This document shows positions 35,006 through 38,254 of a DNA stretch of 38,428 nucleotides, piece by piece. Each line of letters opens with the position of its first letter. The first letter of the stretch is position 1. Position numbers and translations under genes: made by a program. This stretch comes from Bacillota bacterium (GTDB lineage Bacteria; Bacillota; Negativicutes; Sporomusales; CTSoil-080), in NCBI GenBank assembly GCA_017889635.1, contig JAGGAC010000056.1, positions 1 to 38,428 of the forward strand, written 5' to 3'. The notes under the pieces are model-generated. The model had not been told where the DNA came from, searched no databases, and was given only the letters and a program-made list of their open reading frames with translations.

Positions 35006-35276
35006 CAATTTATCTGTCAGCAATACCGGCAATCATACAACTACCCTTTTCATATTAGAAATTTCTTTGTATTAATAATTATTCGCCGCAAAATAAAAAT
35101 ATCCTTCTTTTTGGGAATATTTACAAGGAAGGCTGTAAGCCCTCAATATGCACAAGTAAAGTTGCAAAACAATACTCACTACAATTAAAAGCGCACTTTT
35201 CCAATGAAATTCCAATAAAACTATTCGATGTAACATACTAAATAGCTATACTTAATTTTCATAACAAGGTGGTGGT

Positions 35277-36971
35277 ATGATAATCATGATATCGCTGGTC
35301 AATACTCCTTTTTCTAATGCGGCCCAACAAAAAAAACTTGTGGCTAAAAGTGATGATTCATTAGTAGCTCAGCCATTTTCTAACCCCAAAGAAGCAACCG
35401 CATCAGTCCAGCTACCTGATTATAATAGTACTGACTTTATACTTAATATATCAAATAAAACACAGAAGCTTGCTAATACTAAGCAAACGTCGCCCCCTAC
35501 ATCAGATGGCGAAGCCTTACTTAAATCCGCCCAAAAATCCTTATACGGAATTTACTATCGGCTGCTAATAGGAAAAGAACTTGCAAATAGAGCAATACAT
35601 ACTAAAAATGAAAAAAAGAAACAAGCCATTCAAGTACAACTAAATAAACTTAACTCGGAAATTAACAACATTAGTGCATCAACTAAGTACAAAAACATTA
35701 AGCTCTTTTGTGACTCAACTACAGCAACAAAAGATGATCGTGATATTATTAATTGTTTAAAAAGCGATTGGCTGGAATCGGCCGAAAATGTAATCAAAGA
35801 ACGCTATGGGCTGACAGGCGACAACTCTAGTATCAACATTTTTATCGATGAAACGTCTAAACCTTATCTTGCCGCTACAGAATTCAACATCAATACCGAT
35901 GGAAAAGCAATTGATCAGTCTCTGCGAATCGCTATTAAAAGTGCGCTTCCCGCTACCTTGCCAAACGGCGGGGAAGCTCCCTATTATGATGACCGGACAA
36001 TTACTCACGAAATGGTCCATGCTATTATGGGGCGAACGATGAATTTTGCTTCTGTTCCGATTTGGTTCCAAGAAGGCGCAGCAGAATTTATCCACGGAGC
36101 AAATGAGCGGGTAGTCGGTGATTTGGCGTATCTTGGCGGCGGGATGCTAGGCGCCGAGAGAATTCAGGATGCCTTAGGCGACGGTACTGATAAAAGCTGG
36201 ATTAATGACAGCCAACATTACTCAGCAGGCTATATGGCTGTACGCTACTTACATGAGCAAATCAAAGCAGCCGGACATAGCGGCGGAATTAAAGATTTAT
36301 TTACCGAACTAAAGAATAATCCGACAATGACCTTTGATCAAGCATTGCGCAATGTTTCCAATTATCGAGGTGGCACCAAGGCTTTTGTTAGAGACTTTCT
36401 AGGCCATAATCATGGCGCAAAATTTATTCATAGTCGTGATGTCGCTGGTGAATTTAAAAATGCGCAAGCCGGTGGGGACACTGGCGGAATCGGCGGAGCT
36501 AACGCCGACAACGGACCTGTCCAAACAGCTAAATCAGTAATTCCTGACATTAGTCATTCTACCGATACACCACTAAAGAGCTACAAAATATCCTGGCCAA
36601 CTTATGAACAGAATGCTATAAAGAATATACAAATCGGAACAAACCATAACAAATCAGTTTATTATGATATCTTTAAACTTGACAGCGACGTAATTGGAAC
36701 AAAGGATATAAATGTTTTAAAATATCCTACTGAGGCTATTTCAACATATAATAACGCTCTATCATATGTTTCCAACGCCCTGGAAAAAATCAGCAAATTG
36801 AAAAATCAACTTAAAACCTCTTCTCCATCACCAACTACTACAAACGGTCCACACCTTCCAGATGCCGCAGCCGCCCGAAAAATGGCAGCAACTATAAAAG
36901 CAAGTCTCAACCAGACAACTTTTTTGTCACAAGCAAATATGCAGCCAGACCGTGTATTGCAGCTTTTATAG
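35277..36971 (+). CDS. Flagellinolysin-like protein: flagellin-type ends with an internal zinc metallopeptidase
   Basis: 564 residues. Zinc protease motif HEMVH (244-248) with a downstream glutamate cluster WFQEGAAEFIHG (E266, E270). N-terminal flagellin-like helices at about 78-145 (EALLKSAQKSLYGIYYRL; QLNKLNSEINNISASTKYKN), and a C-terminal flagellin domain with IQIGTNHNKS (451-460), AISTYNNALSYVSNALEKI and the terminal FLSQANMQPDRVLQLL. This is the layout of flagellinolysins, which assemble as proteolytic flagellar filaments. Odd: residues 1-70 keep the length but not the flagellin D0 signature (no LSSGLRIN or DDAAG), so export or polymerisation may be altered. ATG with AAGGTGGTGG; ends at a strong terminator. 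No other flagellar genes are near. Confidence 0.8.
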   Translation: MIIMISLVNTPFSNAAQQKKLVAKSDDSLVAQPFSNPKEATASVQLPDYNSTDFILNISNKTQKLANTKQTSPPTSDGEALLKSAQKSLYGIYYRLLIGKELANRAIHTKNEKKKQAIQVQLNKLNSEINNISASTKYKNIKLFCDSTTATKDDRDIINCLKSDWLESAENVIKERYGLTGDNSSINIFIDETSKPYLAATEFNINTDGKAIDQSLRIAIKSALPATLPNGGEAPYYDDRTITHEMVHAIMGRTMNFASVPIWFQEGAAEFIHGANERVVGDLAYLGGGMLGAERIQDALGDGTDKSWINDSQHYSAGYMAVRYLHEQIKAAGHSGGIKDLFTELKNNPTMTFDQALRNVSNYRGGTKAFVRDFLGHNHGAKFIHSRDVAGEFKNAQAGGDTGGIGGANADNGPVQTAKSVIPDISHSTDTPLKSYKISWPTYEQNAIKNIQIGTNHNKSVYYDIFKLDSDVIGTKDINVLKYPTEAISTYNNALSYVSNALEKISKLKNQLKTSSPSPTTTNGPHLPDAAAARKMAATIKASLNQTTFLSQANMQPDRVLQLL

Positions 36972-37032
36972 CTGCAGAAATTGCCTTTCTATGTTAAATA
37001 TTAATTATGTTCTATACTTCTCAGTTGACAAG

Positions 37033-37066
37033 AAAAAGCCCGGAAGGCGTTCCTTCCGGGCTTTTT
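37033..37066. terminator. Bidirectional terminator between convergent genes
   Basis: Perfect 15-bp arms AAAAAGCCCGGAAGG and CCTTCCGGGCTTTTT (37033-37047, 37052-37066) around CGTT. It serves both the flagellinolysin-like gene (+) and the beta-helix gene (-). Confidence 0.93.
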
Positions 37067-37102
37067 CATACACAAGCTACTATGAAATTCTAACAATATT
37101 CT

Positions 37103-38254
37103 CTATTCCTTCGGAGCTAGTTTCCCCCCATCAGTTAAAGTATAAGTTTCAGCGTTCAACCAGCTATTGGCACTCAGGCTGGAATCATAATAAATCGTAT
37201 ACCCATTGTCGTCAATGTTAGCTAAACTTGTATCGGCATCAGTAAATGTTGTCAGATACGACGTTCCGGTTACACTCCATGTGCTTGTTTCATCAAGTGT
37301 CAAATTAATTGCTGAAGCTGTATTTTCACCGTTGATAGTACCAGTCAGGCTACTGTTATTTTGTAATATCAGAGTAATCGAACTGACACTATCTGCAACC
37401 ACATCACCAACCAAGGTTTGACTATTTGCGGTAAAGGTCACATCAGCGCCATTCTCGCCTTCCGTGCCCCATTTATCGGCGCTGGCCTTTAAAACAGTTC
37501 CTGACGCAACAGCCGCACTTACACCAGTCAGGTTAATTACCGCTGTCGTGTTTGTACTATAGAACAATGGTCCAACTTCCGCCGTTAGTGATCCGCCTGT
37601 CATAGTAAAGGTTCCTGTTCCTACCTCGGCATCGCCGGAGAAGCTTTGATATATCATCGCCCCACATTTTTTTGCTCCCGACAAAATGGTGTCAGTTAAA
37701 GTTATCGAGTTTAAACCTTCAATAACAGCGCCTTCTGATCCGGTAGCCGTAATTGTAGCTCCATCTATTGTAATAGCTCCTGTCGAATAAATTCCAGGCG
37801 AATTTCCCCCAGACGTATTCATAGTACCGCCGCTAACATTTACAGTTCCGCCGCCACGATCAGTCGCAATAGCTGCGCCACTTGCTCCCGCGGTTGTAAT
37901 AGTCACATTATTAAGATTTAATACGCCAGCATTAGTTGCATCCACACCATGCCCCAATCTGCCGGTGCAATCAATCGTAACATTAGTCAGATTAACTGTT
38001 GATCCTGAATCAGTTGCAAAAACCCCATTAGCTCCCAAGCCACTTGTAGACACCGAACAATTAGAAAGGTTTATTATACTAGCAGCACTTGCCAAAATGC
38101 CAGCGTTAAGACCATAAAAACTACTGTCGTCCTCTGAAGAAGAATCACCACTTGTTGTTACCGTTGAATTTGACAGTGTTAATGTCCCGCCATCGGTTAC
38201 ATAAATGCCGTATTCATCCGGCTCAGTTGCGATAAGTCGGCGCCAGCTTCCCAC
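37103..38254 (-). CDS. Beta-helix surface protein, 5'-truncated or frameshifted
   Basis: Up to 383 residues of repetitive, Gly/Ser/Thr/Asn-rich sequence with 20-25-residue beta-helix rungs (for example GGTLTLSNSTVTTSG, STVNLTNVTIDCTG, GVLNLNNVTITTAG), typical of passenger regions of adhesins and autotransporters. Ends DGGKLAPKE. There is no signal peptide or ribosome site. The frame enters from within the 3' end of another coding sequence (38223-38428) in a different frame; GTG 38254 is not a credible start. It therefore looks like a module separated from its N-terminus by frameshift or by recombination between repeats. No outer-membrane beta-barrel is present in the visible part. Confidence 0.6.
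   Translation of the reverse strand: MGSWRRLIATEPDEYGIYVTDGGTLTLSNSTVTTSGDSSSEDDSSFYGLNAGILASAASIINLSNCSVSTSGLGANGVFATDSGSTVNLTNVTIDCTGRLGHGVDATNAGVLNLNNVTITTAGASGAAIATDRGGGTVNVSGGTMNTSGGNSPGIYSTGAITIDGATITATGSEGAVIEGLNSITLTDTILSGAKKCGAMIYQSFSGDAEVGTGTFTMTGGSLTAEVGPLFYSTNTTAVINLTGVSAAVASGTVLKASADKWGTEGENGADVTFTANSQTLVGDVVADSVSSITLILQNNSSLTGTINGENTASAINLTLDETSTWSVTGTSYLTTFTDADTSLANIDDNGYTIYYDSSLSANSWLNAETYTLTDGGKLAPKE
37126..37302. repeat. Direct repeat copy A (C-terminal module)
   Basis: About 177 bases nearly identical to 38252-38428, offset by 1126 bases. It encodes the C-terminal module TSTWSVTGTSYLTTFTDADT through DGGKL. Confidence 0.85.

Follow-up and report, generated by a model that had tools for sequence, protein, structure and literature searches.

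The gene at 35277–36971 on the forward strand of the window (the whole 38,428-nucleotide stretch of DNA analysed here, contig C16 of a genome of 4.54 Mb in 152 contigs) encodes a protein that is, as judged from its sequence, a flagellinolysin, in which the peptidase and the flagellin D1 bundle are kept and D0 is degraded at both ends. Profile scores and a tree of its relatives show this loss as a trait of one well-supported clade, including Sporomusa and Lucifera, and not as local decay. Known flagellinolysins are enzymes built into the flagellar filament.

Identity of the gene and its start codon

The open reading frame is intact and codes for 564 aa. Translation more likely starts at the second ATG (35286), giving 561 aa, because this codon is preceded by the ribosome-binding sequence AAGGTGGTG, and the first residues from this ATG (MISLVN...QQKKL) align with those of the orthologs at loci L006 (MFSLIN...QQKRL) and L007 (MVSLVN...QQKKL). 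Residue numbers refer to the 561-aa form, except for ranges quoted from Pfam, NCBIfam and 9hpz profile and sequence matches, which refer to the 564-aa form.

The NCBIfam flagellinolysin model NF033876 matched residues 118–501 over model positions 1–380 of 384 with 338.3 bits, against an equivalog cut-off of 205; this score and the presence of HEMVH...EGAAE bore out the identity proposed in the initial annotation. Since this match leaves out D0, records named 'flagellinolysin' need not be filament proteins. Pfam Flagellin_N was matched only at profile positions 52–137 of 139, the D1 part; hmmscan gave this match 24.1 bits, under the cut-off of 26.6, and the genome search gave it 27.4. Peptidase_M9 reached 22.7 bits, under its 26-bit cut-off. 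Flagellin_C gave no match to the protein at E up to 1, and in the genome search matched only the normal flagellin; no further domain was found above cut-off in the Pfam and NCBIfam scans. The solved flagellin 9hpz matched both sides of the peptidase (residues 58–149 and 449–563; whole-sequence E 2e-6), the C-side match being weak (12.7 bits). The genome carries one flagellinolysin, one normal flagellin (C4:19813), FlhA and FliS, together with C4:17496, a protein of 324 aa that has a flagellin N domain and is FlgL-like by place and size. The parts of the protein and the elements around the gene are collected in Table 1.

Table 1. Features of the flagellinolysin gene and its surroundings in the window
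Feature	Position	Strand	Basis
D0-less flagellinolysin gene, 561 aa	35286..36971	+	NF033876; start by ribosome-binding site and ortholog alignment
Residues 1–70, collinear remnant of D0-N, spoke and lower D1	35286..35495	+	pLDDT ~23–32; D0-N HMM 2.7 bits
Residues 71–140, flagellin D1 N-side helical hairpin, predicted helices 72–104 and 109–132	35496..35705	+	pLDDT 79–96; Flagellin_N 52–137; VIA-align
Residues 141–425, gluzincin-type metallopeptidase domain, M9-like	35706..36560	+	NF033876; Peptidase_M9 below cut-off
Active-site motif HEMVH (241–245) ... EGAAE (263–267)	36006..36086	+	Alignment of 15 sequences
Residues 426–511, D1 C-side, predicted strands and helix 481–511	36561..36818	+	AlphaFold2 model; flagellin D1 match to residue 521
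Residues 512–522, Pro/Ser/Thr-rich linker	36819..36851	+	Helix break 512–524 in model
Residues 523–561, degraded D0-C with SQANMQPDRVLQLL tail	36852..36968	+	C-D0 HMM 16.1 bits; related tails in 12/12
Right-handed beta-helix repeat protein	37103–38254	-	Pfam 27.7 bits, cut-off 25.9; convergent with protease gene
16-bp perfect palindrome, loop CGTT, bidirectional terminator-like, between protease and beta-helix genes	37032..37067	.	Seen in sequence
Tandem repeat TTCCAAT-N4-TTCCAAT, candidate regulatory element	35199..35216	+	3 exact places in own genome, one here

Predicted structure

For AlphaFold2 the window protein was aligned to 14 relatives, a shallow input of 15 rows; a control run used these sequences with the canonical flagellinolysin L018 in first place (mean pLDDT 71 and 66 for the two models). 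In the window model the peptidase, predicted mostly at pLDDT 69–96 with dips at 221–240 and 411–430, is set between the N- and C-side flagellin D1 helices, as seen both in the model and by VIA-align. The C-side helix has pLDDT 85–89 up to residue 510, and beyond the break low-confidence helices run to the C-terminus. The control model has helices at 7–30, 43–97 and 104–127 and a single unbroken C-terminal helix at 467–551, and its D0 parts also fall below pLDDT 50. As pLDDT is low in D0 of both models, the difference between the eroded and canonical proteins lies in helix content and less in confidence. Within residues 1–70, about the first 12 are still flagellin-like, and the remainder is of low complexity and predicted to be disordered.

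Foldseek alone gave no match at E ≤ 0.001, though its listing was mostly flagellins, and the fold match rests on VIA-align, a second pass over Foldseek's own matches. The best of the 50 VIA-align matches listed was B. subtilis flagellin (5gy2_C; Z 17.2, 146 residues, rmsd 2.1), and all of them were by title flagellins or flagellin-containing complexes (Z 14.0–17.2), covering model residues 63–521. B. subtilis flagellin was aligned from residue 58 on and Salmonella 1ucu over 62–447, corresponding to D1 without D0. Retention of the D1 bundle is shown in this predicted structure.

These results agree with two earlier descriptions made from the sequence, namely a D1-like N-terminal helix (partial Flagellin_N match, predicted D1 bundle) and residues 1–70 without conserved D0 but with its spacing kept (D0-N score, collinear models). 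The proposed flagellin-type C-terminus held in part: a residual likeness is detected by the C-D0 HMM and the predicted structure has a coiled D1 bundle of N- and C-terminal parts, but Flagellin_C is unmatched in Pfam and the helix is broken.

Loss of D0 in one clade of flagellinolysins

Relatives were collected by a contig scan, which gave 27 loci and was the only source for other phyla, and by search with NF033876, whose cut-off was exceeded in 3/3 genomes of the family, 7/28 of the order and 64/380 of the class. In an even draw from the phylum, six of 398 genomes, the own genome included, gave matches at E ≤ 1e-70. In the class, the best 30 places among the 64 genomes over cut-off were taken as loci, and the 23 new ones (L079–L101) were read; a 435-aa frame in G318 is among the class matches outside the loci read for D0. 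HMMs of D0-N, C-D0 and D1 were built from nine flagellins of the order.

The eroded state was found in 12 distinct flagellinolysins, all with intact open reading frames: the window protein; L006 and L007 of CTSoil metagenome-assembled genomes (MAGs), the same proteins as those of G002 and G001 of the window's family; L008 of Lucifera butyrica; L009 and L010 of Sporomusa, with the same proteins in genomes of the window's order; L048, also of this order; L011 and L019 of the MAGs UBA8346 and UBA8347; and L079, L080 and L084 of another family of the class (f15). Sporomusa sp. KB1 and S. silvacetica are among the carriers. The 12 proteins were compared with 33 canonical proteins, a set dominated by Massilia and family f28 that includes L096 (1085 aa, irregular) and leaves out the first open reading frames of L023, L024 and L025, which have an HExxH pattern and are not flagellinolysins. 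Neither the count nor the tree includes L026–L029, L031 and L032, which are contig ends or non-flagellin proteins, or L030, whose frame is split.

The D0-N HMM scored at most 2.7 bits in all 12 eroded proteins (five unreported altogether) versus 17.9–77.9 bits in 33/33 canonical proteins, and the C-D0 HMM gave −0.7 to 16.1 bits, the window protein scoring highest and the two Sporomusa proteins 0.8 and −0.7, versus 45.4–76.9 bits. Four of four further canonical loci reached at least 41.6 bits for D0-N and at least 70.9 bits for C-D0. The N-side D1 HMM detected every eroded protein (9.5–42.1 bits, median 26.4; canonical 44.4–105.5), and the C-D1 HMM gave 0.9–16.3 bits versus 20.3–48.9 in canonical proteins. 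The lowered scores of both D1 parts suggest relaxation throughout the flagellin scaffold, D0-N being down at background level. NF033876 gave 301.5–364 bits in 7/7 other eroded proteins scanned, and HE[ML]VH...EG[AT]AE was present in all 12; in the 15 aligned sequences, window included, the motif columns are invariant except for position 265 (A/T). The NCBIfam flagellin models matched in register (for example, residues 62–131 of L011 with model positions 62–131), and the two Sporomusa proteins had a collinear match to flagellin models from residues 17–40 on, with some D0 signal left. Such matches in register indicate erosion of D0 in place and not truncation. A VLxLL-like tail was kept in 12/12, with substitutions (VFHLL, VAQLL, VLDLI) and, in some, short extensions.

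A maximum-likelihood tree was built from the peptidase region of 44 proteins (279 columns; 32 canonical proteins, L096 being absent). In it all 12 eroded proteins fell on one side of a branch with 100/100 support, so that a single change of state suffices for the loss; the root is not inferred by the tree. D0 is general to flagellins, and for this reason D0 was probably lost rather than gained. Among canonical proteins, those from Massilia came nearest, followed by Pseudomonas and Hylemonella, an order with modest support (83/58, 89/83, 94/88), and f28 was distant. D0 was present at both ends in the 20 loci read from f28, a large family of the same class, two of these loci having an extra shorter open reading frame. 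It was likewise kept in three loci belonging to two further families of the phylum. The N-terminal erosion first noticed in the window thus extends across an entire clade, the 33 others all keeping D0.

The D1 interface position that we take to be R90 of Salmonella was considered as a clue: the eroded proteins have GK forms in place of LQRxRE, with the first R kept in L079, L080 and L084. It was not used, as canonical f28 members depart from LQRxRE as well.

The scan also recovered the flagellinolysin peptidase module in proteins seemingly without flagellin parts, both at L027, L028, L029, L031 and L032 and among class matches with a profile range of about 37–218. Some of them carry RTX repeats (L032, Pfam HemolysinCabind 104 bits), L031 and L032 being of Selenomonadaceae. 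Genus g66 of family f28 has many copies of the module, one genome having as many as 55 candidate places at first look, four of which were scored. In the same family, L090 (G271:C31) and L096 (G295:C14) each hold two neighbouring flagellinolysin-like open reading frames, the shorter one of L090 being without the N-terminal flagellin part.

Selection on the parts of the protein

The ratio dN/dS was estimated by region (Nei–Gojobori) in close pairs, more distant pairs being near or at silent-site saturation. In four close pairs it was 0.03–0.14 for the peptidase and 0.12–0.37 for the N-terminus. Pairs among L079, L080 and L084 gave 0.03–0.08 for the peptidase, 0.12–0.35 for the N-terminal 70 residues and 0.16–0.23 for the C-terminal tail; L009/L048 gave 0.14, 0.37 and 0.82, and L009/L010, with few changes, 0.42, 0.53 and 0.56 for the same three parts. 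By these estimates the peptidase is shown to be under purifying selection; the N-terminus is freer, yet not neutral, in the f15 trio, and the tail varies.

Flagellar export genes and signal sequences

FlhA was found in 11 of the 12 carriers, the exception being G002 (the genome of L006), a MAG that is 65% complete and has FliS, and FliS was found in 7/7 carriers of the order. As both genes are near-universal in the order (26/28 genomes each), their co-occurrence with flagellinolysin says little and is permissive evidence. None of the 12 eroded proteins has a lipobox within its first 40 residues, and simple hydropathy, a test that is not a signal-peptide predictor, detected no strongly hydrophobic stretch and no Sec-type signal in them (10-residue mean in the first 40 residues at most 1.38; 19-residue mean anywhere at most 1.07).

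The last ~40 residues of flagellin wrap FliS (PMC7248283, as consulted in part). This FliS-binding segment is partly kept in the window protein and nearly gone in Sporomusa; given this degradation of C-terminal D0, FliS binding may be lost, and the FliS step is uncertain for part of the clade. A new export route, which the initial annotation had raised, does not appear to be needed, since flagellar genes are present in every carrier (FliS in the twelfth), the first residues and the last ~10 stay flagellin-like, and neither a lipobox nor a hydrophobic signal was seen.

Gene neighbourhood and upstream elements

The gene stands alone, with a divergent rubredoxin-like gene on one side and the convergent beta-helix gene on the other. 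The palindrome between the latter and the protease gene was not listed by the terminator scan. Flanking open reading frames were read by eye, a domain scan covering some of those of the window. Read in this way, neither the surroundings of the window gene nor the flanks of L007–L011 and L019 showed an evident flagellar gene. This isolation had been thought unusual; the gene is indeed alone, but may not be special in this, as five of seven canonical loci were likewise, by eye, without evident flagellar neighbours, L013 and L030 lying clearly among flagellar genes. Flagellar genes are reported as flagellinolysin neighbours in the part of Eckhard 2017 consulted. L030, of Fervidicella metallireducens, is canonical and has its frame split into two open reading frames near the active site, by sequencing error or as a broken gene.

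Gene neighbourhood as a functional clue was rejected, as the neighbours differ between the window, L007, Lucifera and Sporomusa. The adjacency to a beta-helix gene is not kept among the orthologs: L006 otherwise shares the window's neighbours and had no match to this gene in the stretch examined, and L007 has three genes between the protease and beta-helix genes, with longer beta-helix relatives ~4.6 kb downstream. BLAST found no window neighbour in common with Lucifera or Sporomusa.

Upstream of the gene in seven of the 12 carriers, from three families, the repeat TTC[AC]AAT-N4-TTC[AC]AA[TC] is followed by roughly AAANCTTTCGAT. The repeat is exact in the window, L006, L007 and L008, has two mismatches in L079, L080 and L084, and is not evident in the other five; in G001, as in the own genome, the copy upstream of the gene is one of few exact matches (one of two). 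The repeat has an 11-bp period, as is typical of OmpR-family sites. Genome-wide counts with at most one mismatch against a reversed control were 34/22 in G000, 18/19 in G001, 31/16 in G027 and 61/16 in G098, raised in G027 and G098 and not clearly so in G000 and G001. Genes beside 13 other repeat sites had no common theme by eye. A Pho box was rejected, as eight PstS-family loci (of 10, in four genomes) were without the TTCAAAT repeat at fewer than two mismatches; four of the PstS-family loci (L145–L148) have, by eye, TTAACA-type repeats upstream instead.

A sigma-28 promoter was not convincing upstream of any of the 12 genes in a low-power scan with what we take to be the sigma-28 consensus. 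Among 200 dinucleotide shuffles, 13 and 20 were as good for L011 and L019, and 77–199 for the other ten. The test has little power, as seven of nine true flagellin genes of the order failed it (82–200 of 200; 19 and 37 for the other two).

Comparison with known systems

Described flagellinolysins (NF033876; Clostridium haemolyticum and Hylemonella gracilis; Eckhard et al. 2017, 2020) have the same peptidase in the flagellin variable region, with HExxH...EGxAE, the same order of parts and D1 helices on both sides. The difference lies in the flagellin N and C domains, which in these members are conserved and form the filament core, whereas the window protein has a degraded D0-N, spoke and D0-C and a break in the C-terminal helix. 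FliC/Hag flagellins share the D1 bundle, the N- and C-terminal parts that fold together and the VLxLL tail; unlike them, the window protein is without conserved D0 and Flagellin_C is unmatched. Peptidase M9 collagenases share the gluzincin-like zinc motif, in line with the weak Pfam M9 match, but the window peptidase lies inside a flagellin D1 bundle and no other collagenase domain was found.

The Campylobacter jejuni flagellin FlaC is the precedent for the fate proposed here. FlaC is a non-structural flagellin that is secreted via the flagellum and bound by FliS (PMC5466977, in part), secreted and not assembled also according to the part of PMC4863622 consulted, and like the window protein it is a flagellin paralog beside normal flagellins. 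The two differ in that FlaC has D0–D1, is largely without D2–D3 and has no enzyme domain named in the consulted text of PMC5466977, whereas the window protein has lost D0 and carries an enzyme.

Flagellinolysins without D0 are not described in the consulted parts of PMC5595980, PMC7643111 and PMC8442362, and 'Sporomusa' is absent from the main text of two flagellinolysin papers. The literature found on flagellins lacking D0, in a search of main texts mostly of open papers, seems to deal mostly with structure, immunity and engineering, and with FlaC.

A proposed non-filament flagellinolysin and alternative explanations

The explanation that we favour, at slightly better than an even chance, is a non-filament flagellinolysin: a D0-less, active-looking protease exported by the flagellum and released or loosely associated with it. 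The protein would be a zinc metallopeptidase on a short flagellin D1 bundle, D0 having been lost at both ends in one Bacillota lineage. Its peptide chain would leave by the flagellar type III export channel in the manner of a late substrate, using the flagellin-like first residues, the disordered N-terminal stretch and the VLxLL-like tail, which in flagellins is part of the region that FliS binds. D0 is the major driver of self-polymerisation (PMC7643111, in part); as D0 is absent, the protein presumably could not lock into the filament core and would be released or held loosely by D1 contacts. The metallopeptidase, with the D1 bundle as its stable base, would then cleave external peptides or proteins. 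Flagellar export, lack of polymerisation, proteolytic activity and substrates are what we infer from these features. A wider claim is held more tentatively, somewhat short of even: that this lineage has converted flagellar export into a means of secreting a dedicated enzyme, by way of a flagellin that is without its polymerising domain and keeps the export tail and D1 scaffold.

Filament association could take another form, in which the protein is a minor subunit of the filament, tip or junction, co-assembling with normal flagellin via D1–D1 contacts and placing a few proteases on the surface or ends. The retained D1 bundle is very similar to that of flagellin, the genome has a normal flagellin, and the flagellinolysin of C. 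haemolyticum forms part of the filament (PMC5595980, in part); however, both D0 halves and the D1–D0 helices are degraded and D0 is kept in 0/12, so that this role, also suggested in the initial annotation, is weakened by the degradation of D0 and lower D1 and now seems unlikely. Somewhat less probable still is a surface or secreted protease that is exported independently of the flagellum and keeps D1 for oligomerisation or binding. The lack of evident flagellar neighbours by the window gene, L007–L011 and L019 and an upstream element unlike sigma-28 would fit such a protein, but some canonical members also seem, by eye, to lie away from flagellar genes, the 12 proteins have neither a lipobox, a strongly hydrophobic N-terminus nor a membrane-length hydrophobic stretch, and no other domain exceeds cut-off while the flagellin-like first residues and tail are kept. 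The same absence of a classical signal in the hydropathy test would suit a protein that is cytoplasmic and never exported, such as a flagellin-handling protease or a decoy binding FliS or FliW; the characterised C. haemolyticum relative is extracellular, on flagella, in the consulted part of PMC5595980, which makes this explanation improbable. Lastly, the lost D0 sequence is what a decaying gene heading for loss might display, an explanation to which we give very little weight in view of the 12 intact open reading frames, the active-site motif in all of them and the low peptidase dN/dS in four of five close pairs.

A clade in which the enzyme is kept and the filament core is lost provides a natural experiment that separates the two functions of flagellinolysin, and would show that the enzyme is of use to the cell even off the filament. 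The D0-less clade would also test which parts of flagellin suffice for export, as a natural model for flagellar secretion. The wider claim, if true, would show how a structural filament protein can evolve into an effector exported by the flagellum.
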